From Methanobrevibacter sp. (lineage in GTDB: Archaea > Methanobacteriota > Methanobacteria > Methanobacteriales > Methanobacteriaceae): a stretch of DNA of 33,794 nt. Where the stretch lies: the NCBI GenBank assembly GCA_030539795.1, contig JAUNXN010000005.1:1-33794 (forward strand), written 5' to 3'. Below are positions 6,436 to 33,794 of the stretch, piece after piece. Below the pieces are notes generated by a model. The model saw nothing but the letters and a program-made list of their open reading frames with translations. It searched no databases and was not told the origin of the DNA. How positions within the stretch are numbered: position 1 is the stretch's first letter; each line of letters starts with the position of its first letter. The position numbers and the translations under genes are program-made.

Positions 6436-6457
6436 TATCCCAAATATCCTTTTTTTT
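6423..6457 (+). terminator. Hairpin plus T8 at end of polysaccharide operon
   Basis: GGATATT (6423-6429) pairs with AATATCC (6434-6440) around a 4-nt loop, and eight T residues follow at 6450-6457. The TAA stop of the methyltransferase (6433-6435) lies at the loop/stem junction. Archaeal termination mainly needs the U tract; the hairpin is an extra that recurs at other ends in this window. Confidence 0.6.
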
Positions 6458-6482
6458 AAAAAAATCGCCAAATTAAAAGAGA

Positions 6483-8429: not shown

Positions 8430-8465
8430 TGCTGTAAAAAGTATTTATAACCATCAAATAACTTT

Positions 8466-8493
8466 AACTGTCCAACCGGACAGTTATTTTTTT
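8466..8493 (+). terminator. Terminator between convergent genes
   Basis: AACTGTCC (8466-8473) pairs perfectly with GGACAGTT (8478-8485) around AACC, followed by A and T7 (8487-8493). It ends the adhesin transcript and touches the stop codon of the convergent minus-strand gene. Confidence 0.8.
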
Positions 8494-11203
8494 AATTTTT
8501 TTTAATCCAATCGTAAACTCTTTTTGAATTGTTCTTATCAGTATATGTGAAAAATTCATCTACCCGTTTTTTATACTCATCTTCCATTTCACAATCGTTT
8601 TTGATATAGTCATCCAATTTATCAATTAAATCACTTTCTGTTTTAACGATATCTCCAAAGCCCATGGTGTTATAGTCAAAATAGCTTTTTTCGTAGTGAT
8701 AGTCATCATTTGGATGATAGTAAATCACCGGTTTTTTAAGATAAGCAAAATCAAAGAACACAGATGAATAATCAGTGATTAAAACAGAGGAATTGTTGAG
8801 CAAATCCTGATAGGATTCGTCAATGGCCAAATGGACATTATCCGGAATGTCAAATAAATCAATGAATCTCTCATCGCTTTCGCCAATATTCTTAATTAAT
8901 TCAGGATGCGGCTTGAAAGCAACTTTATAATCATCCCTAACTAAATCCGGATTATTTAACAATGAATTTAGATTAGTGAAATACTCTGACTCCAAGAAAG
9001 TCCGTTTATCTCCCCTTAGATACTTCCTCCATGTTGGAATAATCAGAATTTGCTTTTGATTATTCTTTTCCAAATTATCAAAGCGAGGAAAACCGAGATT
9101 TTGAATTATTGATTTGTCATAACCATATCCTTCCTCCAGAAAAGATTCTGATTCCAAATCAGATACCGTAACAATCAATGAGAGATCCTTTTCATATTTA
9201 TACATCCATGAGGAAATGTTATCCTTCGTTACGCCATGCTGGAGCCAGTAGATTTTATAATTGAGCAATCCTGAAATCAAAGGCCTTAAGTCAACATCCT
9301 CATAAAACGGATTTATCACGCTGTCATAGGGGTGTGTTGTGATAATCTTATCCGCATGCAGCATCAATAGCTTATGCTTTTTGGATCCGAACTCCACAAC
9401 ATTGCCTATTTTAGACAACTCCTTAAATCGTTTGCTTTCACGTGAAACGACAAAATATTTTTTAATCTTATCTTTTTGACGGGCAGCATACTTAAATAAA
9501 TGATAAGCGTTATCATCCGCTTCATCAATTCTGTCCTGGAAAAGATAAACTGTTTTGCCTCTCCAATAAGGTAATGTGGCCAAATAATACTGCTTTAATT
9601 TAATAATTTCATTCAAATCATCGCCGGACAAGCCATATTCATTTTGAATATAATCCAAATTGTCAAATTGACTTTTCAACAAATCTATGCTGTCCATTTC
9701 CCGTTTGACATGTGACTTGAATGAATTTGGAATGACATTGAATGCATAATTGTTGTAATAAAGGATGTTTTCCTCAGATATTTTGTATTTGCTCAATTCA
9801 GAAATTTTAACATTTGTTGTGAACGCCGTTCGCAGGAAAAGCTCAACAATATTTTCAGAGTCAAAATTCCTATTGTCGGCATCCCTGTGATATGTGACCT
9901 GAAGCTTGACTTTAGATATTTCCCCTTTTTTAAGGGGCACTTCAACATCGAAATTGAACTTATACTGGAATAGCTTATCCAAAAAGTAGACGTCAGGACG
10001 TGCAGTATATTTTACCTGTGTTGCATCAAAGCGGTCCACTTCCGCATCATCGACATACTTGATGGCTTGAATGGACAAATACCTGTAATCGATTATGCTG
10101 TTTAAAAATCCGGATAACCTTAACTTATCATCGCGAATATCAACAATATCAAACCATATCCTATGAGATCCAAGTGCACTTGGCATATAATCCCCAATTT
10201 TGATTAATACATCGCCATCTGCAACTTCAGTATGTAAATCGCCAGTTTTGAGATAAGCCAAGAATTGTCTGAACCTTTCATCTGTGAAGTTGGTTGAATA
10301 TAATATCACATCCAAATCGATGAAATCCAGAACATCGTATAAATCATTGTAAAACTCCTCAACTTCCTGAGGGTTTAAAATCGATAAGTCTTCACGAACC
10401 ACCCATTGCAGGTCATAGACCAGACTGTACTGAACAAACTTTGGGACATCGCCCTTATTCTCCTTGGCATAATTGAACAGGTAGAGATAGTAATCCTTCA
10501 GCTTATCTGTGAAAAACTCCCTTTGAGTGCTGACATTATCTATTGTTGATGATTCATCGATACGCTTTCGCAAAAAGTATTCTGTAGTGTTTACTACGCC
10601 TAAAAATGGCTTTTCAAGTAATATTTTTGTTAAAACAATCACGTCTTCTGATGATACAACATTTGTCGGAAACTCATATTTGGAGAAGACATCCGATTTT
10701 ATGAAGGCTGAATTGGTGTGAAGCTGCGGGTTATCCGGTTCAGCGTTCAAATCGATTACTCTGGTTTCGCTGAACTTTCCGTTCAGCATGTGCCCCCCGT
10801 TCAAACGCCCGAAAAATGTAATCGGAATGGAGACCACATCAGTTTCATCAAAATGCTCTTCAAAAAACCCGTAAACTTCCTCCAGGGCATTCAATGAAAA
10901 AAAATCGTCGCTGTCTGCAAAATTCACATACTTTGCATTAACGTGTTCAAATCCATTGTTTCGAGCCGCAGCCTGCCCGGCATTTTCCTGATTCAAAACA
11001 ACAATGTTGTCGGGAAATCTTTCCTGATAGCCCAGACAGATTTCACCGCAGTTGTCTTCGCTGCCGTCATTAACCAAAATCAGCTGAACATTATCCTCAA
11101 ATCCTATGGTCTGGTTAACTATTGAATCGATGGCCTGATTTAAATAATCTCCAGTATTGTAAATTGCCATTACAATTGCGAATTCAAATCTCTTTTCAGC
11201 CAT
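8492..11203 (-). CDS. Bifunctional GT2 glycosyltransferase / CDP-glycerol glycerophosphotransferase-like protein (paralog)
   Basis: The 903-residue protein has the same layout as the one at 890-3568. It has a GT2 domain (FAIVMAIYNTGDYLNQA, a DGSED variant of the DDGS motif, GQAAARNNG, DSDD), a long middle region, and a TagF-like domain with LQHGVTKDN, LGFPRFDN, IPTWRKYL, FKPHPE and ITDYSSVFFDFAYLKKPVIYY. Note that the first acidic motif reads NDGS instead of DDGS. The family builds phosphate-linked surface polymers; the actual sugar and polyol are unknown. ATG 11203 is chosen over the in-frame TTG 11209 because GGGTGG at 11219-11214 is spaced 10 nt from it and only 4 from the TTG. It is a single-gene unit with its own promoter, divergent from the adhesin gene at 11437. 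Confidence 0.85.
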   Translation of the reverse strand: MAEKRFEFAIVMAIYNTGDYLNQAIDSIVNQTIGFEDNVQLILVNDGSEDNCGEICLGYQERFPDNIVVLNQENAGQAAARNNGFEHVNAKYVNFADSDDFFSLNALEEVYGFFEEHFDETDVVSIPITFFGRLNGGHMLNGKFSETRVIDLNAEPDNPQLHTNSAFIKSDVFSKYEFPTNVVSSEDVIVLTKILLEKPFLGVVNTTEYFLRKRIDESSTIDNVSTQREFFTDKLKDYYLYLFNYAKENKGDVPKFVQYSLVYDLQWVVREDLSILNPQEVEEFYNDLYDVLDFIDLDVILYSTNFTDERFRQFLAYLKTGDLHTEVADGDVLIKIGDYMPSALGSHRIWFDIVDIRDDKLRLSGFLNSIIDYRYLSIQAIKYVDDAEVDRFDATQVKYTARPDVYFLDKLFQYKFNFDVEVPLKKGEISKVKLQVTYHRDADNRNFDSENIVELFLRTAFTTNVKISELSKYKISEENILYYNNYAFNVIPNSFKSHVKREMDSIDLLKSQFDNLDYIQNEYGLSGDDLNEIIKLKQYYLATLPYWRGKTVYLFQDRIDEADDNAYHLFKYAARQKDKIKKYFVVSRESKRFKELSKIGNVVEFGSKKHKLLMLHADKIITTHPYDSVINPFYEDVDLRPLISGLLNYKIYWLQHGVTKDNISSWMYKYEKDLSLIVTVSDLESESFLEEGYGYDKSIIQNLGFPRFDNLEKNNQKQILIIPTWRKYLRGDKRTFLESEYFTNLNSLLNNPDLVRDDYKVAFKPHPELIKNIGESDERFIDLFDIPDNVHLAIDESYQDLLNNSSVLITDYSSVFFDFAYLKKPVIYYHPNDDYHYEKSYFDYNTMGFGDIVKTESDLIDKLDDYIKNDCEMEDEYKKRVDEFFTYTDKNNSKRVYDWIKKN

Positions 11204-11213
11204 GTTCAATTAA

Positions 11214-11256
11214 CCACCCAATAATTTAAAAAAAAGTTCATTGATAATATATAAAA
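11214..11256 (-). promoter_or_regulatory. Promoter and ribosome site of minus-strand GT2-TagF gene
   Basis: On the minus strand TTTTATATATTAT lies at about 11255-11243, predicting a start near 11223, and GGGTGG at 11219-11214 precedes ATG 11203. The 227-bp divergent region 11210-11436 holds only this and the opposite promoter. Confidence 0.5.
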
Positions 11257-11372
11257 TTTATTAAATATTTAAAAGTTACTCAACAAAATAAAACCATTAA
11301 ACTTCCTGTTTAATCAAAATAATTCTTAAAAAAGAGATTCAGTTAAAATAGCCACTTTAAATTTAAAAAAAA

Positions 11373-11432
11373 TTTTATATTAGAAGACGAATATACACAA
11401 TTATCATACTAAACAAAAAAAATATTTGGAGG
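11373..11432 (+). promoter_or_regulatory. Promoter and ribosome site of adhesin-like gene 11437
   Basis: An A-rich run (BRE-like) precedes TTTTATATTAG at 11373-11383; transcription should begin near 11403. A perfect GGAGG at 11428-11432 lies 4 nt before the ATG at 11437. Confidence 0.55.
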
Positions 11433-11436
11433 AAAC

Positions 11437-14400
11437 ATGAATCTTAAAAGATTAACTATCATTGTCTTGATTTTGCTGTGCCTTTTAAGCATCGGCGCAG
11501 CCAGTGCAGATGAAAATGTTACTGTGCAAGACAACACAACACAGGAAATTATAAAAACATCGGATTATACTCATTGGATTGAAATACCCGAAGGAAACTG
11601 CACAAGCTTTGATAACGGAATGGAATTAAGAGACCTTCCAAAAGATGCTTCCGGAAACATTTCAATGTCAATTGATGGAAATGAAAAGTACAATAAATAC
11701 GTGTACCCAAAAGGAAACAGATATTCCATTGACGCCAAAAAACTGGCTTTCGGAAACCATACTGCCGAAATCAAATACAGCGGCGATGAAAAATACGAAG
11801 GATTTATAAAAACATCTTCATTCAATTATGTGCCTGTAATCGTTGATGTGCCGGATGAAGTTGAAATAGACAACAACTATGGAAATTCAATCAAAATTTA
11901 CATTGCAGACGGAGTCACAGGCAACATCAAGATTGTAATCGACGGTAAAACCTACCTGAATCACGCAATAAACAGCGACATTCTTGAAGAAGATTGGGAT
12001 ACAGGAGAATTTTACATTACAGTCGGCTTAGATGAATTATCCTATAAGAAACACGCTTATCAGGTTACATATTCAAAAGGAAACCAGAAAGGTTTTACCA
12101 AATCAGGATTATTTAACGTGAGCTACTTATTTTCAATTACCAATGACTATGAAAATGACAATATCACTTATGGTGAAAGTCTTGATTTTTCATTCAACCT
12201 TCCAGAAAATGCAAATTCAAATTTAACAATTGAATTAAACAATAGAACATACTATACTCCCCTCATATATGGTAATGGACATATGACATTGTCTGATTTT
12301 GATTTAGGTGAAAATATCATAAAATGCACCTATAAAGACAAAAATCTTCCACAAAAGACAGCCATAAAAACAATCAACGTCAAACCGAACCTAACTGCCC
12401 CTAAAACAATTGCATACAACGATGACCAAAATATAAGTTTAAAGATTCCAAATACATTAACCGGCAACTTAACTGCATTAATTAATGATAAGAAATACCA
12501 AACCCCAATCGTTAATGGAAGCGCAAGCATTTCGCTCAACAATTTAACACCTGGAACATATGATGTAAATGTGATAAGCAATTATGCACAACTAAATTAC
12601 ACAATGACAGTCCTGCCTAACTTAAAACTACCTTCTAAAATTTATAACCAGGAAACCTATAATCTTACATTCACTGCTCCGGAATATTTCAATGGAATTT
12701 TGCAGTTAAACGGCATGATAAATGACAATATTTCTGTCACCAACGGAACAGCAGTGATTCCAATTGAAAACTTAAGTGAAGGGGATTACCAGCTAGAAGC
12801 AGTATACTTTGAAAATAACACTCCAATTTATAATTGGAAGTTTAACACAACATTATCAAGCGAAAGTCCAAATTGGGAACTGGAACTTGATTTTCCAGAT
12901 GAAATCAGTAAATTTTATTACATCTTCGAAGATGTGATTGTGAAAACCCTACCCGGCATCATTGAAGGAGATTTAATATTATACATTGACAATGAACAGT
13001 ATTCTTCTAAACACATCTATGATTTATTTGAATACCCCTTCCAAATTGATCCCGAATCAATAGGTTTAGGAAATCATACGCTTACACTCGCATACTCCGG
13101 AGACGGCTATCTTCAACCAATCAACAAAACCAAAACCTTTGAAATAAAAAATGTAACCATCCAGATGAGCGAAACAAATGAAAGGATTATTGTTACTACT
13201 TCAAATAATGATAAAGGAACAATTACCGTTAATGTTGATGGAAAATTATTCAAAACCGTTAAAATTACCCCTGATGACTGGGAAGACTACAATCAAATTA
13301 CAATCAAATTAAATGAATACAAAAATCAGAACGTTGAGGTAATCTACTCTGGAAAATACGGCAAAATCAATAAAACATTTAACGTTACCCCAACATACAT
13401 GATTTACTTACGCACTGACACATATGATTTTGAAGAAACATATGACTTTGATTTGACTGCACCGACAGACCTGGCCAATGAAATTACCATATCAATTGAC
13501 GGGAAAATTATAGAAAATGTTTCACCTAAAGACCTGGATGAAGACGGATATTACTATATAGACCTTCCAAAATTAGCCCCCGGCAAACATCTTCTTGTTG
13601 CAGACTATCCTGGAGACAGCAAATATCCACAAAAATCTTTTAATGAGACATTTAGCGTATTTTCACAAATTAAAGCTCCATACTGGCTATACTATGGGGA
13701 AACCGACTTTGTAACATTGACATTGCCTGAAGACGGTGCGGGAAATCTCACACTCTACATCAAAGATGAAAACGGCAGATACCAATTATACAACACAACC
13801 GAAATGAGCAAAGGATTAGCGAAAATGCCCCTTCCAAACTCCGAAATAAGCAGCTATGATTATAAGGCATCATTTAAAGGAAATTATTACGTTGAAGATT
13901 TTACCGACAAAATGTATGTCAGACTGCATTTGACCTGTCCTAATGAAATGACATGGGGCGAGGACGAATACATCACCCTTAACTGCAACAATATTACTGA
14001 CGGATACCTTCTACTTCAAAGCTTTTCTGGTGATTACTATGCCTCAGTTAGGTTTAACGGAAGTGAAGCTAAAATATCACTTAAAAACCTGGATATTGGA
14101 GATTACTCAGACGGATATTTGGTCGGCGTGCTTTATGAAAAAGGAAAATATATTGATGAGGCGGATTTAAGCTTTTATATAAATCCAATCAAATCAAAAT
14201 TGACCGGCGGCAAAAACATAAACATGTACTACAGCGACTCAAAAACATACTCCCTAAAAATCTGGGGAGATTACGGAAAAGTGGTTGGAGCAGGCCAGGT
14301 CGTGACCATCAAAATAGGCAAAAAAACCTTTAAGGTGAAAACCAACAAAAACGGAATTGCCAAACTCAAAATACCAAACACAATCACACCGGGCACATAC

Positions 14401-14730
14401 AAAATCAAAGCGACATACCACGGAACAACTGTTACAAAAACCTTGAAAGTCAAGAAAGTCCTATCCCTTAAAGCCGTCAAGGTCAAAAAGTCAGCCAAAA
14501 AACTGATATTGACAGCAACCCTTAAAAAAGGCAAAAAAGCAATCAAAAACGCAAAAGTAACCTTCAAGTTCAACGGAAAAACCTACAAGGCAAAAACCAA
14601 CAAATACGGAATAGCAAAAGTGACAATCAAAAAATCAGTTCTCAAAAAACTCAAGGTAGGCAAAAAAATCAAATACCAAGCAACATACCTGAAGGTAACA
14701 GTCAAAAAAACCGCAAAAGTCAAAAAATAA
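11437..14730 (+). CDS. Large secreted adhesin-like protein with Ig-like repeats and lysine-rich C-terminus
   Basis: The 1097-residue protein starts with a signal peptide (MNLKRLTIIVLILLCLLSIGAASA). About nine Ig-like beta modules of ~100 residues follow, each with recurring marks such as GNHTAEIKYSGDEKY and GNLT or GNIT, many of them N-x-S/T sequons. The main body is acidic. From ~920 it becomes strongly basic: one module ends in KATYHGTTVTKTLKVKK, and the last 90 residues (TATLKKGKKAIKN, FKFNGKTYK, VLKKLKVGKK, YQATYLK) are a Big_1-like module with K at about every third position. No sortase motif or C-terminal membrane helix is seen, so attachment by charge to an anionic wall polymer is an inference. 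The N-terminal half is paralogous to 17645-20824. It has its own promoter and terminator. Confidence 0.8.
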   Translation: MNLKRLTIIVLILLCLLSIGAASADENVTVQDNTTQEIIKTSDYTHWIEIPEGNCTSFDNGMELRDLPKDASGNISMSIDGNEKYNKYVYPKGNRYSIDAKKLAFGNHTAEIKYSGDEKYEGFIKTSSFNYVPVIVDVPDEVEIDNNYGNSIKIYIADGVTGNIKIVIDGKTYLNHAINSDILEEDWDTGEFYITVGLDELSYKKHAYQVTYSKGNQKGFTKSGLFNVSYLFSITNDYENDNITYGESLDFSFNLPENANSNLTIELNNRTYYTPLIYGNGHMTLSDFDLGENIIKCTYKDKNLPQKTAIKTINVKPNLTAPKTIAYNDDQNISLKIPNTLTGNLTALINDKKYQTPIVNGSASISLNNLTPGTYDVNVISNYAQLNYTMTVLPNLKLPSKIYNQETYNLTFTAPEYFNGILQLNGMINDNISVTNGTAVIPIENLSEGDYQLEAVYFENNTPIYNWKFNTTLSSESPNWELELDFPDEISKFYYIFEDVIVKTLPGIIEGDLILYIDNEQYSSKHIYDLFEYPFQIDPESIGLGNHTLTLAYSGDGYLQPINKTKTFEIKNVTIQMSETNERIIVTTSNNDKGTITVNVDGKLFKTVKITPDDWEDYNQITIKLNEYKNQNVEVIYSGKYGKINKTFNVTPTYMIYLRTDTYDFEETYDFDLTAPTDLANEITISIDGKIIENVSPKDLDEDGYYYIDLPKLAPGKHLLVADYPGDSKYPQKSFNETFSVFSQIKAPYWLYYGETDFVTLTLPEDGAGNLTLYIKDENGRYQLYNTTEMSKGLAKMPLPNSEISSYDYKASFKGNYYVEDFTDKMYVRLHLTCPNEMTWGEDEYITLNCNNITDGYLLLQSFSGDYYASVRFNGSEAKISLKNLDIGDYSDGYLVGVLYEKGKYIDEADLSFYINPIKSKLTGGKNINMYYSDSKTYSLKIWGDYGKVVGAGQVVTIKIGKKTFKVKTNKNGIAKLKIPNTITPGTYKIKATYHGTTVTKTLKVKKVLSLKAVKVKKSAKKLILTATLKKGKKAIKNAKVTFKFNGKTYKAKTNKYGIAKVTIKKSVLKKLKVGKKIKYQATYLKVTVKKTAKVKK
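14533..14639 (+). repeat. Near-identical 107-bp block in lysine-rich module, copy 1
   Basis: 106 of 107 bases match 20627-20733 in the paralog two genes away; the one difference is G at 14590 against A. A further 34-bp match lies upstream, near 14466. The rest of the two genes is far more diverged, which points to gene conversion or recent shuffling of this module. Confidence 0.85.
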
Positions 14731-14760
14731 GGATCAATTCCTTATTTTACTTATTTTTTT
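14726..14760 (+). terminator. Hairpin with embedded stop codon and T7
   Basis: AATAAGGA (14726-14733) pairs with TCCTTATT (14739-14746), and T7 follows at 14754-14760. The TAA stop of the adhesin-like gene (14728-14730) sits inside the left arm. Two weaker palindromes follow (14766-14781 and 14787-14803). Confidence 0.7.
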
Positions 14761-14818
14761 AGAGTCTATAAAATTTTATAGGCTTATTTGATTTTTCATC
14801 AAATCCGGACCGTCTAAA

Positions 14819-14870
14819 ACAATATATATCATTTCATTCAGACCTATATAATATAACATTTTAAGGGAGA
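14819..14870 (+). promoter_or_regulatory. Promoter and ribosome site of three-gene adhesin operon
   Basis: AATATATATC at 14820-14829 is placed to start transcription near 14851, and GGGAGA at 14865-14870 is the ribosome site before ATG 14875. A second TATA-like run at 14843-14855 is too close to the ATG to leave room for that ribosome site. Confidence 0.45.
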
Positions 14871-14874
14871 TAGA

Positions 14875-17631
14875 ATGAAATATGGAAAAACTATTTTGAT
14901 TATCATTTTCATCTTAACATTATTGACGCTCAGCACGGCGTGTGCAGATGAAAATGTTACCGAAAACACTACCTACAGCCCAGATATCCGGGTTCCGGCA
15001 AAGATCTGGAAGGATGGGAACTATAACATTACCATCGAGACAAACGAAGCATCCCAAATAGACATTAGCGGTGCTGTCACATATAACTCAACAGTGAATC
15101 CGGGAAAAACATCGATTCCGATTGAAAACCTCTCAACAGGAAGGCACAGCATCTGCATAAACTCCAATGACACACAAAAGCAGTACAATATCACTGTCTT
15201 AAGGGAAAATCCGCACTGGAATCTGGATTTCACTGAGGAAGAGAGTGAAGAGCTATACGGCCCGCCATGGGATCATGAGTTAATAGGGTCTAGTTTTTGT
15301 ATCCTCAATGCACCTGAAGGCCTTACGGGCAATTTCAGCTTCTATGTAAACAACAGGCTCATCGGCACATGGGATGCCCAGAAATTCCTGTCAGAGCCAT
15401 ATTTTTATGAGGAATATTATGAAGTGGGAACATACAACTACACCATAACCTATTCCGGCGATGACTACTTCTACCCTGCAAGCAAAACCAAAATACGCGA
15501 ATTCACAGAACTCCTGATAACCATTCCGGAAGAAGTCATATTGGGCGATGATGACTACATTCTGATTAAATCAGAATCCCAAATCATAAATGGAAGGCTA
15601 ATTATAAGAATAAACAACAAAACAGTCTATGATAAAAGCAAAATCACAGACATTTACTTCCAATATAACCTGAATCAATTGGAATTGAACAAGCAATATG
15701 ATATTGAAGTGATCTTTACAAGCGCCTACCTCAACAAAACAAAAAAGGCAACCGTAAACGTTACCGACCATATCAGAAATTACGTCACATTCAAGGGAGA
15801 ATACTACTCTGATGTGGACAGTTTCAAATACATCTACGGAAAGGAGAACTACTATAATATCATATCCCCAAAAATCAATCTGAATATCTCCATCGACGGC
15901 AATGAAGTCGAATCAACTTATTACGGTAGCCGTTATATAGTCAATGTAAGTGATTTGGCCCCTGGAACACATAGAATTACAGCCAGCTATGCTGGAAACG
16001 AGAAATATGCGGAAAATACATTCTATAACGATTTTGAAGTGGTCGTAAGGGGAGACTATCCTACAAGCGTAAAGCAGAATGAACTCTGCAACATGCAATT
16101 GACATTGCCTGAAGATGCTGCAGGAAACCTGACAGTCGAGATTGTAAACCTTGACAAAGGCACAAAATATTATAAAAGCATTGAATTAGAAGAACCAAAC
16201 CTGAACATTACCCTTCCAACAGACAATGTGGGACACTATCAGTTCAACTGCTATTTCAATGGAAATTACGAATTAAATGAGATAATGGGCAAATATTTTG
16301 TAAAGGACTTTGCAAAATGGTCATTGAACCATGACTACTGGTTTACATACCTGAACGATTCAGTAATCCTGACCCTGAAGCTGCCTAACGATGGAATCGG
16401 AAATCTGACCGTTGAAGTTAAAAGATATGGGGAGGACTATGCAAATTACACAATTGAAGTGAACAGGACCTGCAAAGTCACATTGCCGACAGACCATATC
16501 GGCGAATACGCCGTGAAAACATCATTTGACGGCAACTACGATTTGAATCCATATGAATACCATTATGAAGTCGATTCCGAATATTTTATAGAAATAATGG
16601 ATGTAATGGGTGACTGTGAATTGGATTACAATTCAAAACATTATGTTTACATTGAACTTCCAAAAGACGGCATCGGCACCTTGACATTGGAAGTGAAATA
16701 CGGCGAAAATGACAATTATACCATTTACAAAAGCGTGAAATTAAATAAGGGAAAGGCTTCAATCAAATTCCCAACCAACCATGTCGGAAAAATATATTAT
16801 AACACATTATATAGTGGAAATTATGAGATCTACAATATCACAGGCGAATCAACAATAATATATCCGATTTATACATTTAAAAATAGCATAGCCACCATAA
16901 TCGCAAACAAGGAACTGAACGGAAACTTCATCGTTACCGACTATATGGCCGGAAAGACATTCACAAAAAGGCTGGCAAACGGTACTGCATCAATCGATTT
17001 GAGAAGTTATGCTAAAAAACTCAACAAGCCAACATCTATCTCTTTGGAGTTCATATCAGATGAAAATGATAACTATTACCTGAGCACCGTTCAGCTTAAT
17101 CCAAACATTAAAGTGGTTGCAAAGAACGTTGTGATGTATTACGGGGATTCCAAAGTATTCAAAGCCAAAATTTACAGAAACGGCAAGGTAGTTGGAAAAG
17201 GAGAAAAGATAACTGTAAAAATAGGATCAAAGACCTACAAGCTAACAACCGACAAGAACGGAATAGTCAAAATAAAAATAACTCAAACTCCAAACAAGTA
17301 CACAATAAGGGTCATTTACAAAGGAATGACCTTTAAAAAGAAACTGACAGTAAAACAGACATTGACACTCAAAAAGGCCACAGTCAAAAAGTCAACAAAA
17401 AAGCTAATCTTAACAGCAACCCTTAAAAAAGGCAAAAAAGCAATCAAGAACAAGAAAATAACCTTCAAGTTCAACGGAAAAACATACAAGACAAAAACCA
17501 ACTCAAAAGGAATAGCAAAAATAACAATCAACAAATCAGTTCTCAAAAAGCTTAAAGTAGGTAAAAAGGTAACTTACCAGGCCACATATCTCAAAACAAC
17601 AGTTAAAAAGACTGCAAAAGTTAAAAAATAA
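14875..17631 (+). CDS. Secreted adhesin-like protein with Ig-like repeats and lysine-rich C-terminus
   Basis: The 918-residue protein starts with a signal peptide (MKYGKTILIIIFILTLLTLSTACA). About seven Ig-like beta modules follow; a motif such as LPEDAAGNLTVEI or LPNDGIGNLTVEV recurs at least four times, each with an N-x-T sequon. The last ~170 residues are basic and mirror the ends of 11437 and 17645: a GKGEKITVKIGSKTYKLTT module, then TATLKKGKKAIKNKKITF, FKFNGKTYK and YQATYLKTTVKKTAKVKK. Family members in gut methanogens are surface-exposed; the ligand is unknown. It opens a three-gene operon, 13 bp from the next gene. Its body is shorter and more diverged than its two neighbours, while the end is conserved. 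Confidence 0.8.
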   Translation: MKYGKTILIIIFILTLLTLSTACADENVTENTTYSPDIRVPAKIWKDGNYNITIETNEASQIDISGAVTYNSTVNPGKTSIPIENLSTGRHSICINSNDTQKQYNITVLRENPHWNLDFTEEESEELYGPPWDHELIGSSFCILNAPEGLTGNFSFYVNNRLIGTWDAQKFLSEPYFYEEYYEVGTYNYTITYSGDDYFYPASKTKIREFTELLITIPEEVILGDDDYILIKSESQIINGRLIIRINNKTVYDKSKITDIYFQYNLNQLELNKQYDIEVIFTSAYLNKTKKATVNVTDHIRNYVTFKGEYYSDVDSFKYIYGKENYYNIISPKINLNISIDGNEVESTYYGSRYIVNVSDLAPGTHRITASYAGNEKYAENTFYNDFEVVVRGDYPTSVKQNELCNMQLTLPEDAAGNLTVEIVNLDKGTKYYKSIELEEPNLNITLPTDNVGHYQFNCYFNGNYELNEIMGKYFVKDFAKWSLNHDYWFTYLNDSVILTLKLPNDGIGNLTVEVKRYGEDYANYTIEVNRTCKVTLPTDHIGEYAVKTSFDGNYDLNPYEYHYEVDSEYFIEIMDVMGDCELDYNSKHYVYIELPKDGIGTLTLEVKYGENDNYTIYKSVKLNKGKASIKFPTNHVGKIYYNTLYSGNYEIYNITGESTIIYPIYTFKNSIATIIANKELNGNFIVTDYMAGKTFTKRLANGTASIDLRSYAKKLNKPTSISLEFISDENDNYYLSTVQLNPNIKVVAKNVVMYYGDSKVFKAKIYRNGKVVGKGEKITVKIGSKTYKLTTDKNGIVKIKITQTPNKYTIRVIYKGMTFKKKLTVKQTLTLKKATVKKSTKKLILTATLKKGKKAIKNKKITFKFNGKTYKTKTNSKGIAKITINKSVLKKLKVGKKVTYQATYLKTTVKKTAKVKK

Positions 17632-17644
17632 CTGGAGAATTAAA

Positions 17645-20600
17645 ATGGAACTTGAAAAAATAATTGTGATAAGCCTAATTCTGGCAGTGCTGACAATAGG
17701 AGTTGCCGCAGCTGAGGACAACTCAACTCAAGACATCGAAAGCACACCAATAGCCATTGATGTGATTGATGAAACGGCACAGGCAGATATTGATGAAGAA
17801 CTGAATGCAGACGAGCCCCTTCAGGAATTAACAGAAGGCGAAGACTATGAAATAAACATCCCCGCAGAGATTTCACAGCCGGGATGGTGGGGATTTGATA
17901 TAGCAAGCGTTGAGAATATGCCATTTGATGCTAAAGGAAACATCTCAATGAAAATAGATGATATCGAAAGGTACAACCAGAAAGTTTCACCAGGATCAAA
18001 TGCACTCTCCCTTTGCGATTTGAATCTGAATTATGGAAACCACAGCATATCCATCATATACAGCGGAGACAACAAATATGCGGGATTTGTGAGAAATTCA
18101 TCATTTGAAAGGACATTTTTTGACGTGTCCTGCCCATATGAATTTGAAATCGACGGGTACGACTACAGTCTGGACGTCAGTCTTGCCAAAGACGTTACAG
18201 GCTACATCAAAATCCTGATTGACAAAAAGACAGTCTACAACAAAAAATATGATGCTGCAAAGCCGCCAAGCATACTTTTAAGTAAGTATCGTGGAAATCA
18301 CACATACGAAGTGATGTATTACAACGGAAACCAGAAGGATGTGACAAAAAAGGACTCATTCAATGCGGTGGTATACAGGCCGTACTGGGATGTCTTCTAC
18401 AATGATGAAATAACATACGGCGATTCAGTAACATTTGATATAGACCTTTATGGAGACGGATACGGAACTGCAAGATTTAAAAACAGAACTTATTCATTTG
18501 AATTTGATGAGGAAACATGGAGTGCGAACATCAACATCTCCGATTTTGACATAGGACCCAACACTGTCGAGTTTACTGTACATTTCCCTGACGGAGACAG
18601 CCAAACAAAGGAATTTTCACTTTTTGTAACACCCCAAGTCAACGTTCCAACAGCATTATTAACAAATGAAAGTTATGAACTGACTTTTGAAGCCTCCGAT
18701 GACTTCAACGGCAATCTGACATTAGCAGGCATGATTAATGGCACATATAAGGTCAATGACGGCAAAGCGACCGTTCCTATTTCATGTAAAACACCAGGAA
18801 ACTACAGCCTGTCCGTAAGCTATGGAAACTATACTTGGAACTACAATATGTCAGTTCTTGAGGAATCTCCGGAAGTTTCAATAACATTCATATACTACAA
18901 TGAGATATATCCATGGTACGCCGACTATGACCTGGATCCTGACCTTTATGATTTTAAATATTACATCAATGTTACAGCAATGCCTTACGAACTCACCGGA
19001 AACACCGAAATCTATCTGGACGGCAAACTGGTCACCACACTTTCAGGAGAATTTCAGACATATCACATATGGCCGGATTATTATGATTTCGGAAATCACA
19101 CCATAGAAGTTGTTTATCTTGGCGATGAAACATTCAAAGCAACAACAAAAACATACAACTACACAGTGCACGCCTATGACTGCTATGTTGAAAAGGACAC
19201 CGTCAACGTAAAGCTGCTCGGCGACATTTCAGGTACAATAACCGTAAGCTGCAATGGAAAGACATACACCAAAAATATTAAACGCCATTATTCCTATGGG
19301 GAAACATATGCAATTGCATTGGAAGGCATCGAACGGGATGTGAACTACACCATTGATGTCAGATTCAAGGCAAATCCATCCGAATACTCATTCACCCAGA
19401 GCTTCAACTACTCACGAAGCTGTCCGATTGAGATTCATGAAGGCAACTGCATTTATGGTGAAAACAATGCAATCGCATTCTGCATTCCAAATGACATCAA
19501 AAACAAGGCCACAGTCACAATTGACAACAAAACATACTCATACTCCAAAATCAGCACATATTCAGAGGAATGGGATTGGCTCTTTTGGGATGATGACGCT
19601 AAACTTGCCTATGAAGTGGTATTCTCTGATTTAAGCGTCGGAAGCCATGAAGTTGAAATTTCATATCCTGGAGATTCAAAATATCCTCAAACAACATTCA
19701 CTGAAATCATAAATGTTACCTGCACTATCAAAGGTCCGTCTGAGGAAAATCCGAAAAACATCTCCCTGACATTGCCTGTTGATGCTGAAGGCAACCTGAC
19801 TGTTGAAATCGAATTTGGAAGCGTCTACAAGATATTTAAAAGCGTTGAATTGAATGAAGGGCATGCAAATATCGAACTTCCTGTTGGAGGATATTCATTT
19901 AGGGCATATTATACCGGAAGCGACTATGAGGTTAATGACATAGACCCTTACGTGTGCGTATATCCGGACACCACCTACTCCAGATCAATGACCTACGGAC
20001 AGTCAAAGCCGTTCAAAATCGCAGACAATATTAACGCAACCCTGATATTTTACATCGGCTCATATTATGATGGAAACAAGATGCCTGTAGCAGAATTTGA
20101 CCTCAATGAGATCAGCACAATAAGCATAAACAAGAATCTTATTGATGCTGTACTGAAAAACTCAATGGCAAAACTCCTCATACAACATAACTACAATATA
20201 GAAGGATACTATTATTTAGGATTAACTCCGGTTGTCTATACCGGATTTGGCAGTGTGGTACTGGAACACATTGAAGTGAACTTTAAAGCCAAACTTACTG
20301 GCGCAAAAAACATTGCAATGCATTACGGCGATTCAAGAAGCATCAGCCTAAAGGTCTATGACATCTACGGCAAACTTGTGGGCAAAAACAAGGTTGTCAA
20401 AATCAAAATCGGCAAAAAGACATTCAACGCAAAAACAGACAAGAACAGTATTGCAAAATTCAAAATCCCAAATACAATAACTCCTGGAAAATACACAATG
20501 ACCATGACTTACAAAAACGCCAAGGTCACCAAAAAGCTTACCGTAAAACAGGTATTAACCCTTAAAGCCGTCAAGGTCAAAAAGTCAGCCAAGAAGCTAA

Positions 20601-20824
20601 TCTTAACAGCAACACTTAAAAAAGGTAAAAAAGCAATCAAAAACGCAAAAGTAACCTTCAAGTTCAACGGAAAAACCTACAAGACAAAAACCAACAAATA
20701 CGGAATAGCAAAAGTGACAATCAAAAAATCAGTCCTGAAAAAACTCAAAGTCAGCAAAAACGTCAAATACCAAGCAACATACCTTAAAAACACCGTTAAA
20801 AAGACAGTTAAAATTAGAAAATGA
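17645..20824 (+). CDS. Large secreted adhesin-like protein with Ig-like repeats and lysine-rich C-terminus
   Basis: The 1059-residue protein starts MELEKIIVISLILAVLTIGVAAA, an uncommon signal peptide that is acidic before the lysine. An acidic spacer follows (~24-62). About nine Ig-like modules come next; the first two align by eye with those of 11437-14730 (KGNISMKIDD, YSGDNKYAGF, VTGYIKILIDKKT). Marks such as YGNHSISIIYSGD and LPVDAEGNLTVEI recur. The last ~175 residues are the basic pair of modules (TATLKKGKKAIKNAKVTF, YQATYLKNTVKKTVKIRK). GGAG at 17634-17637 fixes the ATG at 17645, so it is the second gene of the operon. The final module shares a 107-bp near-identical DNA block with 11437-14730. 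Confidence 0.8.
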   Translation: MELEKIIVISLILAVLTIGVAAAEDNSTQDIESTPIAIDVIDETAQADIDEELNADEPLQELTEGEDYEINIPAEISQPGWWGFDIASVENMPFDAKGNISMKIDDIERYNQKVSPGSNALSLCDLNLNYGNHSISIIYSGDNKYAGFVRNSSFERTFFDVSCPYEFEIDGYDYSLDVSLAKDVTGYIKILIDKKTVYNKKYDAAKPPSILLSKYRGNHTYEVMYYNGNQKDVTKKDSFNAVVYRPYWDVFYNDEITYGDSVTFDIDLYGDGYGTARFKNRTYSFEFDEETWSANINISDFDIGPNTVEFTVHFPDGDSQTKEFSLFVTPQVNVPTALLTNESYELTFEASDDFNGNLTLAGMINGTYKVNDGKATVPISCKTPGNYSLSVSYGNYTWNYNMSVLEESPEVSITFIYYNEIYPWYADYDLDPDLYDFKYYINVTAMPYELTGNTEIYLDGKLVTTLSGEFQTYHIWPDYYDFGNHTIEVVYLGDETFKATTKTYNYTVHAYDCYVEKDTVNVKLLGDISGTITVSCNGKTYTKNIKRHYSYGETYAIALEGIERDVNYTIDVRFKANPSEYSFTQSFNYSRSCPIEIHEGNCIYGENNAIAFCIPNDIKNKATVTIDNKTYSYSKISTYSEEWDWLFWDDDAKLAYEVVFSDLSVGSHEVEISYPGDSKYPQTTFTEIINVTCTIKGPSEENPKNISLTLPVDAEGNLTVEIEFGSVYKIFKSVELNEGHANIELPVGGYSFRAYYTGSDYEVNDIDPYVCVYPDTTYSRSMTYGQSKPFKIADNINATLIFYIGSYYDGNKMPVAEFDLNEISTISINKNLIDAVLKNSMAKLLIQHNYNIEGYYYLGLTPVVYTGFGSVVLEHIEVNFKAKLTGAKNIAMHYGDSRSISLKVYDIYGKLVGKNKVVKIKIGKKTFNAKTDKNSIAKFKIPNTITPGKYTMTMTYKNAKVTKKLTVKQVLTLKAVKVKKSAKKLILTATLKKGKKAIKNAKVTFKFNGKTYKTKTNKYGIAKVTIKKSVLKKLKVSKNVKYQATYLKNTVKKTVKIRK
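20627..20733 (+). repeat. Near-identical 107-bp block in lysine-rich module, copy 2
   Basis: Partner of 14533-14639 (106/107 identical). The gene lying between them (14875-17631) has the same protein module but clearly more base differences, so copies 1 and 2 exchanged more recently with each other than with the middle one. Confidence 0.85.
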
Positions 20825-20834
20825 AGGGCTTTAA

Positions 20835-22553
20835 ATGAAAAGGATATTGCTAATTACAATTTTAATAGCTTTAATTTCGCTGACTGCAGTAAGTGCAGAA
20901 GACAATGAGACGATCATCATCGGCGATAATCCCCTAAACGTGAGCGGGACCGCATTCGATGATATTCAAAACACAATCGATGAAGCTGAAGCGGGATCAA
21001 CAGTGAATCTGAATGGAACCTACACTGGATTAAAAGAAATCGAAATTGCAAAAGACATTACCATTGAAGGAAATGGCGCTACACTTGATGCCAACCACAA
21101 ATCAAAGATAATTCACATATCTTCAGGCAATGTCATATTGAAAGATATCAACTTCATCAATGCACAATCAAAAACCAATGGAGGAGCAATTTTTGCCAAC
21201 TCGCAATTGACCCTCATAAACTGCAATTTCACAGACAATAGCGTGAATGCCGATTACAAATGGTATGGCAAGACTACAGAGCCGGTCACACCTGATGATT
21301 TAGGCAAAGGCGGAGCAGTATATTCAAACAGCGATTTGACCATCATAAATTCCAACTTCATCGGCAATTCTGCAACTTACATTGAACAGTTTAGAGAAAT
21401 GGACTGGTATTTCACATCAGATGAAGGAAATGGCGGTGCAATACTCACAAAAGGCAAACTACATCTTGAAAAAAGTACATTCGCCAACAATAGCGCATCA
21501 GCAATCGTTTCATATGGCAATGCAGAGATATTGGACTGCATCTTCAAAGAGCAGTCATCAACCCTAACTGTTGGAGAGGAATCAAAGGCCACAATAACCA
21601 ATTCAAGCTTAAGCAATTGCGGTTCTGAGCCGAGAAATCCCACCTATGACCTGACATATCCGGAAATATACTGTGAAAACCTTGAAATCAATGGCTGCAA
21701 TTTCACGAATAATGTAAACAGACTCATTATAGGCGTGAATGCAACAATTAAGGATTGTCTTTTTGAAAACAACACCCAGAATGTGGATGATAACCATATC
21801 ATTGAATTGGATTATGCCAATATCACAAACACCACATTCAAAAACAATTCGAACATCAATTCGGCAATCCTGAAATTCATATCATATGACCTCAAGGATT
21901 GCAGATTTGAAAACAACAATGATGCGGCAATTCTTTCAAATGACATTTTATATGATGATTCGATAAATCAAACATATTTATATAAACCGAAAATCAGAAA
22001 CAAACTCGTGAAAGCCTATTATAATTCAGGCAAAGTAATTACGGTTGATTTGGTCAACATGAAAACCGGGGCCATATTGGATGATTTGTATGCAGACCAT
22101 AAGATTTACAGAAATGGAAAACGATATTATCAGGAATGGTTTTATGAATCCCTCACATTTCCTGTTTCAACATGGAAAGTTGGAACCTATACTGTCGTGA
22201 TTAAATATTTTCAGTCATATATTAAACCAAAAGAGATATCCTTTAAAATAACCATTAAAAAGGCACCAACCATCGTAAAGGCGCCGAAAGTAACCAACAA
22301 GTACAAGAAATCGAAATACTTCAAGGTTACAGTAAAGCACAAGTCAACCAAAAAGGTCGTGAAAAGCCTCAAGCTCAAGGTCAAGGTATACACAGGCAAG
22401 AAATACAAGACCTACAACATCAAGACCAACAGCAAGGGTCTAGCAAAGCTCAACACTAAAAAGCTTAAGGTCGGAAAGCATAAGGTCGTTATTTATTCCG
22501 GAAATGCGAACTATCAGATTTCGGCTAAAAGCACAATCATCATTAAAAGATAG
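20835..22553 (+). CDS. Secreted beta-helix protein with C-terminal Ig-like domain
   Basis: The 572-residue protein starts with a signal peptide (MKRILLITILIALISLTAVSA). Residues ~35-370 form a right-handed beta helix introduced by FDDIQNTIDEAEAGSTVNLNGTY, the usual entry of NosD/Pmp-like helices, with turns such as NGGAIFANSQLTLINCNFTDN and GGAVYSNSDLTIINSNFIGN. Residues ~380-470 may be one Ig-like fold. The last ~100 residues are a basic Ig-like domain (TNKYKKSKYFKVTVKHKS, IKTNSKGLAKLNTKKL, GKHKVVIYSGNANYQIS) of a different type from the lysine-rich end of the three proteins before it. It is the third gene of the operon, 10 bp after its neighbour, with only a weak AGGG ribosome site. Its stop codon lies within the terminator stem. 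Confidence 0.8.
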   Translation: MKRILLITILIALISLTAVSAEDNETIIIGDNPLNVSGTAFDDIQNTIDEAEAGSTVNLNGTYTGLKEIEIAKDITIEGNGATLDANHKSKIIHISSGNVILKDINFINAQSKTNGGAIFANSQLTLINCNFTDNSVNADYKWYGKTTEPVTPDDLGKGGAVYSNSDLTIINSNFIGNSATYIEQFREMDWYFTSDEGNGGAILTKGKLHLEKSTFANNSASAIVSYGNAEILDCIFKEQSSTLTVGEESKATITNSSLSNCGSEPRNPTYDLTYPEIYCENLEINGCNFTNNVNRLIIGVNATIKDCLFENNTQNVDDNHIIELDYANITNTTFKNNSNINSAILKFISYDLKDCRFENNNDAAILSNDILYDDSINQTYLYKPKIRNKLVKAYYNSGKVITVDLVNMKTGAILDDLYADHKIYRNGKRYYQEWFYESLTFPVSTWKVGTYTVVIKYFQSYIKPKEISFKITIKKAPTIVKAPKVTNKYKKSKYFKVTVKHKSTKKVVKSLKLKVKVYTGKKYKTYNIKTNSKGLAKLNTKKLKVGKHKVVIYSGNANYQISAKSTIIIKR

Positions 22554-25775: not shown

Positions 25776-27017
25776 CTACCTCGAGCTATAGAGCTCGAGG
25801 ATTCTTACTTCACGGGCTATAGATGCTATTGCCTCTAGAATTACCGTGCTATCCCCCCTGCACCAGAGGTTCACAAAATTCCGATTATAAATCCTTAAAC
25901 CTTCTTCGTGTATGTTTTTTGCTGCATTGATGTCTCTGTCATGGTGTTTTCCACATTGTGGACATGTCCATTCCCTATCTTCTCTTTTTAGTTTTTTGTG
26001 GTAGTACCCGCAGTTGCTGCAAATTTTGCTTGAAGCAAACCACCGGCTGATTTGGATTAATATTTTACCATACCAATCAGCCTTGTATCTAATTTTATCC
26101 ACCAACGATGACAAACCTATTCTTTGCAGTTTGCTGCTTTGATCCGAGTCTTGGAACATTTATTTGATGTCCAAGTCTTCCATGCCTATCACATCGTAAA
26201 ACTTGACTATATTGTGGCTTAGTTTGTGGTATGTATCTCGTATTTTGTTGTTTTTCTTGTCAATCCATTTCCAGTAGGTTTTTTGGATTTTGCGATATCG
26301 TTTGCTATTGTATTTTCGTCGTGAGAGTATGCGTTGGTATTTTTTTATCATTTGCTCCTCATAGGACAGGTCTAAATTGGTTATCTTTAGGCCGTTGCTT
26401 AGGGTTGCTAATGTTTTTAATCCCAAATCGATTCCCACGCTATTTAGTGTTTTTTCAAAGGATTCAACGGGCACTTCGATGTTGAATGCAGCGTAATATT
26501 TTCCATTGTGTTTTTTGATTGTGACATTGTTGATTTTGATTTCATCACTATTCAATAATTGCTTGTACTCTTTGCTTGTTCTATAATATATTGCCCCTAT
26601 TTTAGGTAAAACAATAGTATTGTCTTTTATTTTGATGTTATTGTTGTTTTGTATTCTGAATGATTGTTTATGGTGTTTTTTGGATTTGAAACGTGGATAT
26701 CCAGTGCCTTCATTGAAGAATTTATTAAAAGCATTGATGAGATCACGATAAACCTGTTGCAAACTACTGGATTCACTTAAATAAAGAAACTCATACGCTT
26801 TTTTAAGCATATTCAACATAGTATTGAAAGTAGTCCAATTGCACTTTAAACGATTATATCCATGCTGTTTGAACAACATATAGGTTTTTTGGTATTCGTC
26901 CAATAGATGATTCCAGGCGAAACGAGCATTACCAATATTCAGATTAAGTTCACCCACCATATCCTCATCAGGGTACAATCGAACCTCCAAACCTTTATTA
27001 ACCATCTTACAAGCCAT
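25776..27017 (-). pseudogene. tnpB: RNA-guided endonuclease TnpB interrupted by an in-frame TAA
   Basis: The frame runs 414 codons with a single TAA at 26162-26160. The first part (285 residues) holds the N-terminal wedge/REC region, RuvC-I (SVGIDLGLKTLATL, catalytic D197) and RuvC-II (IGMEDLDIK, E280). After the stop the same frame continues at once with ATG and 127 residues: the zinc finger (CSNC and CPQC, C47/C50/C66/C69 of this part) and RuvC-III (HDRDINAAKNI). Family members are one protein of about 370-420 residues, so a one-base change in the codon between DIK and MFQ explains the split. TAAATG could allow reinitiation, as this genome also uses TAAATG between genes at 4638-4643, giving two halves; more likely it is inactive. 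The last codons are formed by the right-end hairpin. The GTGG upstream of ATG 27017 is a weak ribosome site. Confidence 0.85.
25779..25800 (-). repeat. Right-end hairpin of the TnpB element
   Basis: CCTCGAGCT (25779-25787) and AGCTCGAGG (25792-25800) pair perfectly around ATAG. It encodes the last residues of TnpB (LELYSSR) and lies where the guide-RNA scaffold (omega RNA) of this family ends, so it is probably part of both the transposition end and that RNA. Confidence 0.7.
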
Positions 27018-30385: not shown

Positions 30386-30704
30386 TCAATTTGATTTCTT
30401 GTCTTCAAAAAGCTCATCCTGCAAATCAGAATCATTTTCTGAGGGCATTTAAATCAACTTTTCTAGTGCCTCTATAGTCCCCGTTTTCAAAATGTCTAAT
30501 TCTTTCATTATAGTAATCTGCTTCTTCATCGCTTAATTCATCAAAATACATTCTTTCATACACTCCGGGCTCGATGACATTTAGGGCATTTAACACTATT
30601 AAATTCTATGAATTCCTCATCATACGGATTATTCAATATTTCATGATACTTTTTAGTTTAACAGCATGAGTTTTTTCAGAAACCTTAATAGTTTTAGTCA
30701 TCAT
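30386..30704 (-). pseudogene. Frameshifted small gene with ribbon-helix-helix-like N-terminus
   Basis: GGTGG (30714-30710) precedes ATG 30704, which reads MMTKTIKVSEKTHAVKLKSIM, typical of ribbon-helix-helix antitoxin-like starts, then stops. If one T is restored in the TATTG near 30630 the next frame continues LNNPYDEEFIEFNSVKCPKC. One more shift gives IEPGVYERMYFDELSDEEAD, and the frame ends at RK stop (30432); a last overlapping frame could run to 30386. Three consecutive meaningful frames with simple indels mean a decayed gene of about 90 residues. The original function is not certain; the CPKC pair hints at metal binding. Confidence 0.6.
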
Positions 30705-30790
30705 CGGTTCCACCAATATATAGCATACTATAAATAATTTTCCATACGCCTGCAGAAGACTTCAAACAATGAATTATATTAAATTTGAAA

Positions 30791-30949
30791 CTAAATATAT
30801 TTTTTGTTGGAAATAAAAACAATTTTACGAATTTAAAACAATATTACTGGATAAAAGCAATAAAAGACCTATTACCACTCCGTTTCAAGTGGGAAAAAAC
30901 AACTTTGCAAAAACAATGAATAATTAAATGCCACTAACTTAAAATAAAA
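30791..30949 (-). repeat. Diverged copy of the region downstream of gdhA (copy R1)
   Basis: 30811-30842 matches 32511-32542 at 26 of 32 positions, and the match continues weakly upstream to 30791. ACTTTGCA recurs at 30902 and 32769, at nearly the same distance (48 against 52 bp) from the direct repeats. R1 lacks the five-palindrome array of R2. Nothing else is seen in 30720-30949. Confidence 0.6.
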
Positions 30950-31022
30950 TAAATAAAAAAAGAAGAGTTAAAAACTCTTAAAAAAAAGAAAAAAGGCCAA
31001 GGAAAATCTATACGATTCCTTG
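30950..31022 (-). repeat. Direct repeat DR1: copy of gdhA 3' end and terminator
   Basis: 73 bp match 32821-32891 with only two one-base gaps in A runs. It holds the last codons QGIV-stop of glutamate dehydrogenase, a hairpin CAAGGAA/TTCCTTG around the stop, and a second hairpin AAGAGTT/AACTCTT between T tracts. Here it lies 37 bp after the ATPase gene and likely serves as its terminator. Confidence 0.85.
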
Positions 31023-31059: not shown

Positions 31060-32259
31060 TTAAATGCTTTTAAATGGATATACTCCCCTCATTTCATATC
31101 CATTTTTCAGCCATGCCCTGAAAACTGAATTGGGAACATAATACTGCATGTTTTCCATTTCGACTAATCCATTATCTTGTAATGTATTTAGTGACCTGCT
31201 GATTGCCCCACTTGTAACATTCAATTCCTTTGCAATTCCAGACTTATTTAAAGGACCATCAAGAAGAGTTGTTAGGATTTTTTGTTGTTGGAGATTTAGC
31301 CTAAACCAGGAATTTGTAAAATGTGTGGCCAACACCGGCAAAAACTTAATGAAATTCTCTTTAACCGATTCAGAATCCAATAGAGCATTTCTAGGAAGTA
31401 GATTTCCAAAAACATTGATGTAAAATGGAACGCCTTTAGTGCATTCATAGAATTGATCAAAACCGTCATCAGTGAATTTCAGATACTCTGCCTTTTCATT
31501 CAAGTAGTTTCTTGTTGTTTGGTGTGAAAATGGCTTGATTTCAATTGTGAGCATTCTTCCGCCGAATGCTCCATTGCTGCCTGCAATCTCTTCTATGAGA
31601 CTGTCTTTAACGCTCATGCTTCCGGAAAATACGTATGAAACATTATTATGTTTTTGGATATGGCTTCTCATGAACCATAAGAAATCATTTAATTTACCCC
31701 CAAGTTCCTTAATAATTTGAAATTCATCAAAAAACAAGAATACACCATTGATTTCATCTTTATATTCATTATACAGATATTGAGGCAATTCCATTACAAA
31801 ATTGGCTAATTTTTTGTAATTCTTTTCTGTCCACAAAAAGGGCACTGGATATCCTTTAACATTAATAAACTCTCTTAAAGTCACATCATGAGTTTTAATA
31901 AACTTCTCTATCTTTTTTTCAACAGTAGTGATGCCAAATTCATTACATTCTTCCATAATCTCATCATAGATTAATTCCATAACGGTTTCTCTTGTAAATT
32001 CATCCTTTTGATAGGCATCTGATGATGAAAAATCAATGTAGACTACCAAATAATTCTCATCCCGAAAAGTCTTCTGTATTTTTTTCATCAATGCAGATTT
32101 GCCAACACCACGAACACCAGTCAGCAATATTGATGGTGAAGTACCGTATTGACTACTCCTCAGCAAATCAGATATGAATTCAATATCTTCGACCCTGTTA
32201 TAGAATTGATTGTCATTTAAATCAATGTTAGTTCCCCATGCTAGTTCATTCATACACAT
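31060..32259 (-). CDS. Archaeal AAA-type ATPase with C-terminal winged helix
   Basis: The 399-residue protein belongs to the archaeal ATPase group (ATPase_2, related to STAND/Orc1-like NTPases). FYNRVEDIEFISDLL is the N-terminal box, GVRGVGKSA (from ~49) is Walker A, VFLFFDEFQ (DE at ~179-180) is Walker B, and YVFSGSM is a sensor-1 type strand. Residues ~320-390 are a winged helix-turn-helix (KSGIAKELNVTSGAISRSLNTL). Family members are abundant in archaeal genomes, often near mobile elements, with mostly unknown roles; DNA binding is inferred from the winged helix. ATG 32259 follows GGGT by 8 nt; GTG 32262 and ATG 32253 are alternatives. The gene lies alone between two copies of the gdhA 3' end and is controlled by palindromes over its promoter. 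Confidence 0.8.
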   Translation of the reverse strand: MCMNELAWGTNIDLNDNQFYNRVEDIEFISDLLRSSQYGTSPSILLTGVRGVGKSALMKKIQKTFRDENYLVVYIDFSSSDAYQKDEFTRETVMELIYDEIMEECNEFGITTVEKKIEKFIKTHDVTLREFINVKGYPVPFLWTEKNYKKLANFVMELPQYLYNEYKDEINGVFLFFDEFQIIKELGGKLNDFLWFMRSHIQKHNNVSYVFSGSMSVKDSLIEEIAGSNGAFGGRMLTIEIKPFSHQTTRNYLNEKAEYLKFTDDGFDQFYECTKGVPFYINVFGNLLPRNALLDSESVKENFIKFLPVLATHFTNSWFRLNLQQQKILTTLLDGPLNKSGIAKELNVTSGAISRSLNTLQDNGLVEMENMQYYVPNSVFRAWLKNGYEMRGVYPFKSI

Positions 32260-32297
32260 CACTTAATACCCTGTTTATTTTTAATCTTAATTAAATG

Positions 32298-32396
32298 TTT
32301 GCAATTTGCAAAATTTATTCAAATTGCACAAAAAATATAAAGTTTGCAATTTGCATAATGCCAAAAAAATAATCCTCATGGTTGCAAATTGTAACC
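32298..32396 (-). promoter_or_regulatory. ATPase promoter with three TTGCAA palindromes
   Basis: Palindromes are TTTGCAA-T-TTGCAAA (32298-32312), TGCAA-T-TTGCA (32345-32355) and GGTTGCAA-A-TTGTAACC (32380-32396, one mismatch); AAATTGCA at 32321 is a half site. Minus-strand TATA TTATATTTT at 32340-32332 predicts a start near 32309, inside the first palindrome. The second lies just upstream of the TATA box. Confidence 0.65.
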
Positions 32397-32623
32397 AACT
32401 TAAGACCCCTCTTCAACATTATTTTTACAATACAATCATACACATATTCAATTAAGACCAATCACTTAATATTATATTTAGTTCAAAAAGCAAATATAGT
32501 TTTTGTTTTCAAATCAAAGCAATCTTACGAAGTTATAGCAATTTTAAGAAGTAAAAACAAATTATATTTATACTTTCTTCCCCACAAATGCAATTTTCTA
32601 AAACCAATATAATTTTATAAAGT

Positions 32624-32734
32624 TATTCACCAAAAGAATAGGTATTCACTATTAGAATAAATATAAAAGTTATTCACTAAGAGAATAAGTATTCCCATAT
32701 AGAATAAAAATTAAAGTTATTCTAACAAGGAATA
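32624..32734. repeat. Array of five TATTC-N7-GAATA palindromes
   Basis: Exact copies start at 32624, 32643, 32671, 32690 and 32718, so spacing alternates 19, 28, 19, 28 (a 47-bp period). The spacers differ (ACCAAAA, ACTATTA, ACTAAGA, CCATATA, TAACAAG) while both arms never change. It looks like a protein-binding array or iterons. The stretch 32397-32623 before it is AT-rich with no credible gene. Confidence 0.85.
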
Positions 32735-32797: not shown

Positions 32798-32820
32798 ACA
32801 TGAAAAATCAAATTAATCAA

Positions 32821-33794
<974 letters not shown>

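Follow-up and report, generated by a model that had tools for sequence, protein, structure and literature searches.

Which protein reads the row of palindromes that lies between gdhA and an ATPase gene on this Methanobrevibacter contig, and what does the row do? The stretch analysed here, called the window, is 33,794 nucleotides long and belongs to a 1.66-Mb MAG. At its end lies the 3' part of gdhA (glutamate dehydrogenase; 32877..33794, minus strand), which runs off the window, and an archaeal ATPase gene (31060..32253, minus strand) lies further in. A first-pass annotation, made from the letters of the window alone, described five exact palindromes between these genes. It assigned them to the ATPase and offered three readings: plasmid iterons, a partition site, or a cooperative operator.

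The last of these turns out to be the best reading, although the ATPase concerned is a different one. With a probability of about 0.6, judged from sequence comparison, the array serves as a docking site close to the promoter, and probably as an autoregulatory operator, for an ATPase whose winged helix recognises it.

Five dyads beside a TATA box

The window contains exactly five matches to TATTC-N7-GAATA, all within positions 32624-32734. By chance, 0.09 matches would be expected across the whole window, and a count of five was reached in 0 of 100 shuffles. Dyad 1 (TATTC-ACCAAAA-GAATA, 32624..32640) is followed at a distance of 19 by dyad 2 (TATTC-ACTATTA-GAATA, 32643..32659), at 28 by dyad 3 (TATTC-ACTAAGA-GAATA, 32671..32687), at 19 by dyad 4 (TATTC-CCATATA-GAATA, 32690..32706), and again at 28 by dyad 5 (TATTC-TAACAAG-GAATA, 32718..32734). 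The palindromes and their alternating spacing are thus as first described. Since the N7 centres all differ from one another, the identity of the arms cannot be put down to recent tandem duplication.

The left arm of dyad 1 abuts a TATA-box-like sequence on the minus strand, CTTTATAAA (32614..32622). This element adjoins the array downstream and reads leftwards, forming a putative promoter. No uniform face of the helix was found when the helical phase of the sites was compared, and Rfam returned no relevant match.

In the rest of the genome there are six further matches to the pattern, all singletons. A reversed-pattern control also gives six, the same number, so that the signal is the cluster of five.

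The array and its ATPase in other genomes

A search for the motif pair, which the first-pass annotation had suggested, shows that the array recurs. A pattern of two dyads 19 apart, allowing at most two mismatches, matches in 22 of 139 Methanobacteriaceae genomes (a backwards control matches in 4), and the full 19/28/19/28 series is present in most of the strong matches. In this search each genome has one TATTC array. Ten arrays were compared, one from the window and one each from nine further genomes. On average, pairs of arrays have an identity of 0.935 in the arms, against 0.49 in the spacers (N7), 0.60 in the linkers and 0.49 in flanking DNA. Because the arms are so far above the spacers, linkers and flanks, selection must hold the arms, as had been surmised, and the distances as well. 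The TTTATA of the TATA box is invariant in all ten, and the gene-side arm runs straight into the box.

An ATPase gene of a single subfamily directly follows the array in eight genomes (G018, G039, G041, G045, G048, G075, G083 and G117). No other genome has a relative of this kind (at least 74% identity to the G039 member). The array therefore stands at the promoter of the presumed regulator's own gene in 8 of 8 cases. Where the start is intact (seven loci), 43-51 bp separate the end of the array from the ATG of the ATPase. In G041, the ATPase gene has internal stops and some of the arms are eroded, as expected if the two decay jointly.

The array and its ATPase occur in three neighbourhoods: beside gdhA in most genomes, beside ilvC in G018, and at another place in G117. 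As the array moves with the ATPase to different neighbourhoods, it belongs to the ATPase promoter and not to gdhA. The candidate of a gdhA feature was rejected on these grounds, and the earlier assignment of the array to an ATPase-type unit is borne out. The annotation had named an array beside gdhA without the ATPase as evidence against that assignment. Such an array does occur, in G070, but most gdhA-side arrays have an ATPase of the cognate kind.

Other arrays depart from this pattern. Orphan TATTC arrays in G010 (L036 7003-7236) and G019 (L038 6626-6727) have 19/19/28 spacing and intact arms; they arose from recent 66-bp tandem copies, and no cognate ATPase is nearby. In G125 (L048 7025-7135) the array and TATA box are present with no ATPase directly downstream, and the next ORF encodes a 692-aa protein.

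The window itself is another exception. Its ATPase likely starts at ATG 32253 (the ORF is open from GTG 32262), about 360 bp from the array. The 400-aa protein consists only of a PF01637 (ATPase_2) P-loop domain, at 61.9 bits against a cut-off of 33.2, and a C-terminal winged helix (residues ~322-375) as in 2fna and 2qen, where HTH_5 scores 31.3 bits against a cut-off of 22. Its identity to the TATTC subfamily is no more than 44-47%, which places it in another. Its closest named relative (87%) is encoded on a contig from an uncultured Methanobrevibacter sp.

Orthologs of the window ATPase at L053-L055 (87, 81 and 77% identity) carry dyads with 27/18 spacing and other arms, and no TATTC array. 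Three such dyads, as in the orthologs, are kept next to the start of the window ATPase (32297-32358, minus strand). Dyad a, TTATGCAAATTGCAAAC, lies at 32342..32358; dyad b, TTGTGCAATTTGAATAA, at 32315..32331, 27 from dyad a; and dyad c, TTTTGCAAATTGCAAAC, at 32297..32313, 18 from dyad b. Pairing of the TATTC array with this ATPase, as first proposed, was therefore rejected: the array is that of a different subfamily.

At cognate loci the TATTC-subfamily gene occupies the place of a stretch of about 350 bp in the window (32262..32612, minus strand), which has a copy of the R2 repeat inside. No remnant of that gene was found in the stretch by tblastn, nor was a TATTC-subfamily ATPase found in the MAG, which is 80.5% complete. 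With neither a cognate ATPase in the MAG nor a remnant at the locus, the array and its TATA box are an orphan, and here, the cognate gene being absent, the array does not stand at the promoter of its own regulator. Most simply, one ATPase unit has been replaced by another: the TATTC-reading ATPase would have gone from its place, with array and TATA box left next to gdhA, and the site would now belong to a paralog that has a 27/18 array of its own. The orphan array could still function as a distal promoter or have a reader in trans. A TATTC-reading ATPase acting in trans could, for instance, sit in the missing part of the MAG.

R2 is a dispersed repeat of about 75 bp, found in the window at 30773-30846 and 32471-32546 (76% identical), and R2-like copies occur in L052, L053, L079, L090, L096 and L099. 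A further 173 bp of the window (~30391-30563) match part of G100 (L046 563-734) at 90% identity. In G100 this stretch, with two small toxin-antitoxin-like ORFs, lies between gdhA and an array; the window keeps a remnant only.

One geometry, many arms

A detector that fixes only the geometry, not the sequence, was run on the regions upstream of 123 ATPase genes. Many of them are preceded by a five-dyad array in which a short spacing (17-19) goes with a long one (27-29). By a strict score, an array is present at 56 of 100 related ATPases, compared with none of 20 distant ATPases, none of 96 other genes and none of 120 shuffles; the same detector found no array at the other 44 related ATPases. 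Most wrong-geometry controls lose the signal, while 29/19 and 27/18 are true variants. The arms differ by ATPase clade and include TACTA, TATTA, TAATA, TAATC, TAATG and TATTG. One genome can hold several arm types, each paired with an ATPase of its own (TATTC and TATTA in G117, for example).

A phylum-wide search (E<=1e-25) gave no match outside the Methanobacteriaceae. Phages yielded no relatives and viral contigs only distant ones, and the sole close relative on a plasmid is a broken gene, carried by a plasmid of Methanosphaera.

How the arms might be read is suggested by the winged helix, which is ArsR/MarR-like. Where the recognition helix has K or R at residue 356, base 5 of the arm is a G:C pair; with N, L, A or D at that residue, the base is mostly A. 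On the tree, C at this base arose at least three times, each time with K at residue 356. Corrected for the tree, the covariation comes to 3:0 informative pairs (p about 0.25), too few for significance, so that the pairing of a basic residue 356 with a G:C arm pair is suggestive but underpowered. Direct reading of the arms by the ATPase's own winged helix is likely.

These observations fit a mechanism in several steps. The winged helix of a PF01637 AAA+/STAND-like ATPase would read the TATTC/GAATA dyads, and the two spacings would be set by ATP-dependent self-assembly of the ATPase. An ordered row of subunits would then cover the DNA up to the BRE/TATA box of the ATPase's own gene, resulting in autoregulation, with repression likelier than activation. 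Autorepression is favoured by several clades whose arrays extend over the core promoter and stop only 5-30 bp short of the start codon. Arrays of the TATTC clade lie wholly upstream of the TATA box, a position that would also allow activation; we infer binding, assembly and the direction of regulation alike. If each subfamily kept the short/long geometry and evolved arms of its own, paralogs could share one genome without cross-talk.

Parallels exist among known systems. STAND transcription factors of the MalT type combine an ATPase with a DNA-binding domain and oligomerise, and arrays of MalT boxes with set spacing lie near promoters. The ATPases studied here likewise have a DNA-binding domain and promoter-near arrays of set spacing, and their assembly is proposed. 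Unlike MalT, they lack an inducer-binding repeat domain, their winged helix is of the ArsR/MarR rather than the LuxR type, their sites are complete dyads, and each array is found only at the ATPase's own promoter. A sensor domain and targets beyond the own gene, as in a MalT-like factor, are thus not seen in a 400-aa protein whose TATTC array occurs once per genome.

An AlphaFold model of the ATPase (pLDDT 83) has its best Foldseek matches in 2qen and 2fna, followed by Orc1/Cdc6 bound to origin DNA. The first two, PAB2304 (2qen) and SSO1545 (2fna), are PF01637 structures with the same domain order; their entry titles name no DNA target. Orc1/Cdc6 initiators and their origin recognition boxes share the AAA+ plus winged helix fold and the multiple sites beside the gene. 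They differ in that the ATPases here have many paralogs per genome, with arrays that overlap or abut promoters. Against the Orc1/Cdc6 model TIGR02928 the TATTC-subfamily protein scores 22.9 bits (cut-off 181.3), and the window ATPase is not listed. No replication origin signal was seen.

PF01637 ATPases are numerous in archaea, with no established DNA target in the literature searched. Nor was any description of such arrays found in the open-access literature, subscription papers being outside the scope of the search. One geometry with many arms offers a direct way to test which targets these ATPases bind. The set of arrays also allows tests of ATP-driven assembly on two alternating spacings and of paralog insulation.

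Rival readings and repeat-bracketed units

The array might instead be bound by an unlinked regulator, such as a general dimeric transcription factor, and merely be located in ATPase promoters. A dimeric HTH protein can read any dyad, and orphan arrays persist in G010, G019, G070 and the window, none of which yielded a cognate ATPase. This reading is nevertheless unlikely, because arm types that change with the ATPase clade at constant geometry, and that coexist in one genome with their own ATPases, could not all be read by one common regulator. As a partition site of a chromosome or plasmid (parS- or centromere-like), the array would have in its favour tandem palindromes adjoining an ATPase gene. 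By Pfam and fold, however, the ATPase is not of the ParA type, the neighbouring ORFs include no ParB-type partner, and a single genome has arrays at several paralog promoters; this second proposal of the annotation is highly improbable. A functionless chance or low-complexity tandem repeat, for which the AT-rich region and the 47-bp tandem similarity might speak, is refuted by the shuffles, by the conservation of arms over spacers across genomes and by the controls of the family-wide detector.

The iteron proposal is best considered together with the repeats around the ATPase genes. The R1 repeat of the first-pass annotation is real. One copy, R1' (32819..32891, minus strand), is the 3' end of gdhA, comprising its last codons, stop and terminator hairpin, and adjoins the TATTC array. 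The other, R1 (30948..31022, minus strand), lies 38 bp beyond the ATPase stop. The two are 97% identical and together bracket the ATPase unit of the window. Similar copies of the gdhA tail bracket the ATPase unit in G045, G048 and G075. The array and ATPase could thus be a past or present small mobile or circular element, in which the array is an iteron-like replication or recombination site for an Orc1/Cdc6-like ATPase. In its favour, apart from the likeness of the fold, matching upstream and downstream repeats occur in 24 of 111 ATPase units, compared with 1.4% for mismatched pairs. In G048, five gdhA-tail copies separate an acetyltransferase-like gene, an array-ATPase unit, an antitoxin-like gene and another ATPase. 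Iterons, too, are repeated protein-binding sites (predicted here) beside the gene of their binder, with possible autoregulation. Unlike iterons, the sites are dyads rather than direct repeats and have two alternating spacings; they lie on chromosomal contigs, adjoining chromosomal genes such as gdhA, and no replicon was found. The units contain no integrase or transposase, phages hold no relative, and plasmids hold a single close one, which is broken. The array keeps a fixed position relative to the TATA box and start codon, and the repeated sequence differs between units. The element reading is accordingly unlikely, and the specific proposal of plasmid iterons is unsupported.

The bracketing repeats, whose content varies, point to recombination-prone, cassette-like units, and the gdhA-tail copies suggest that ATPase genes travel as small cassettes too. 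For the repeat-bracketed units, neither an enzyme nor a mechanism was found. A combined view, speculative and rather improbable, would give each paralog among the STAND/Orc-like ATPases of gut methanogens a private polymerisation platform of fixed geometry. Platform and ATPase together would make up a minimal mobile cassette lacking a recombinase of its own; it would insert at the 3' ends of genes, chiefly gdhA, accompanied by a copy of the gene tail. The platform would then act in self-regulation as well as in the spread or replication of the cassette.

In L042, gdhA-tail copies lie at 451-498, 950-1003, 3470-3542, 5061-5134 and 6423-6474, like a row of cassettes without a recombinase. Elsewhere in the window, an IS605-type OrfB/TnpB (25776-27017, minus strand) is split by a stop or frameshift into adjacent ORFs of 285 and 127 aa, probably a broken TnpB. 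Large adhesin-like, repeat-rich surface proteins, mostly on the plus strand, are encoded at 6540-22553.
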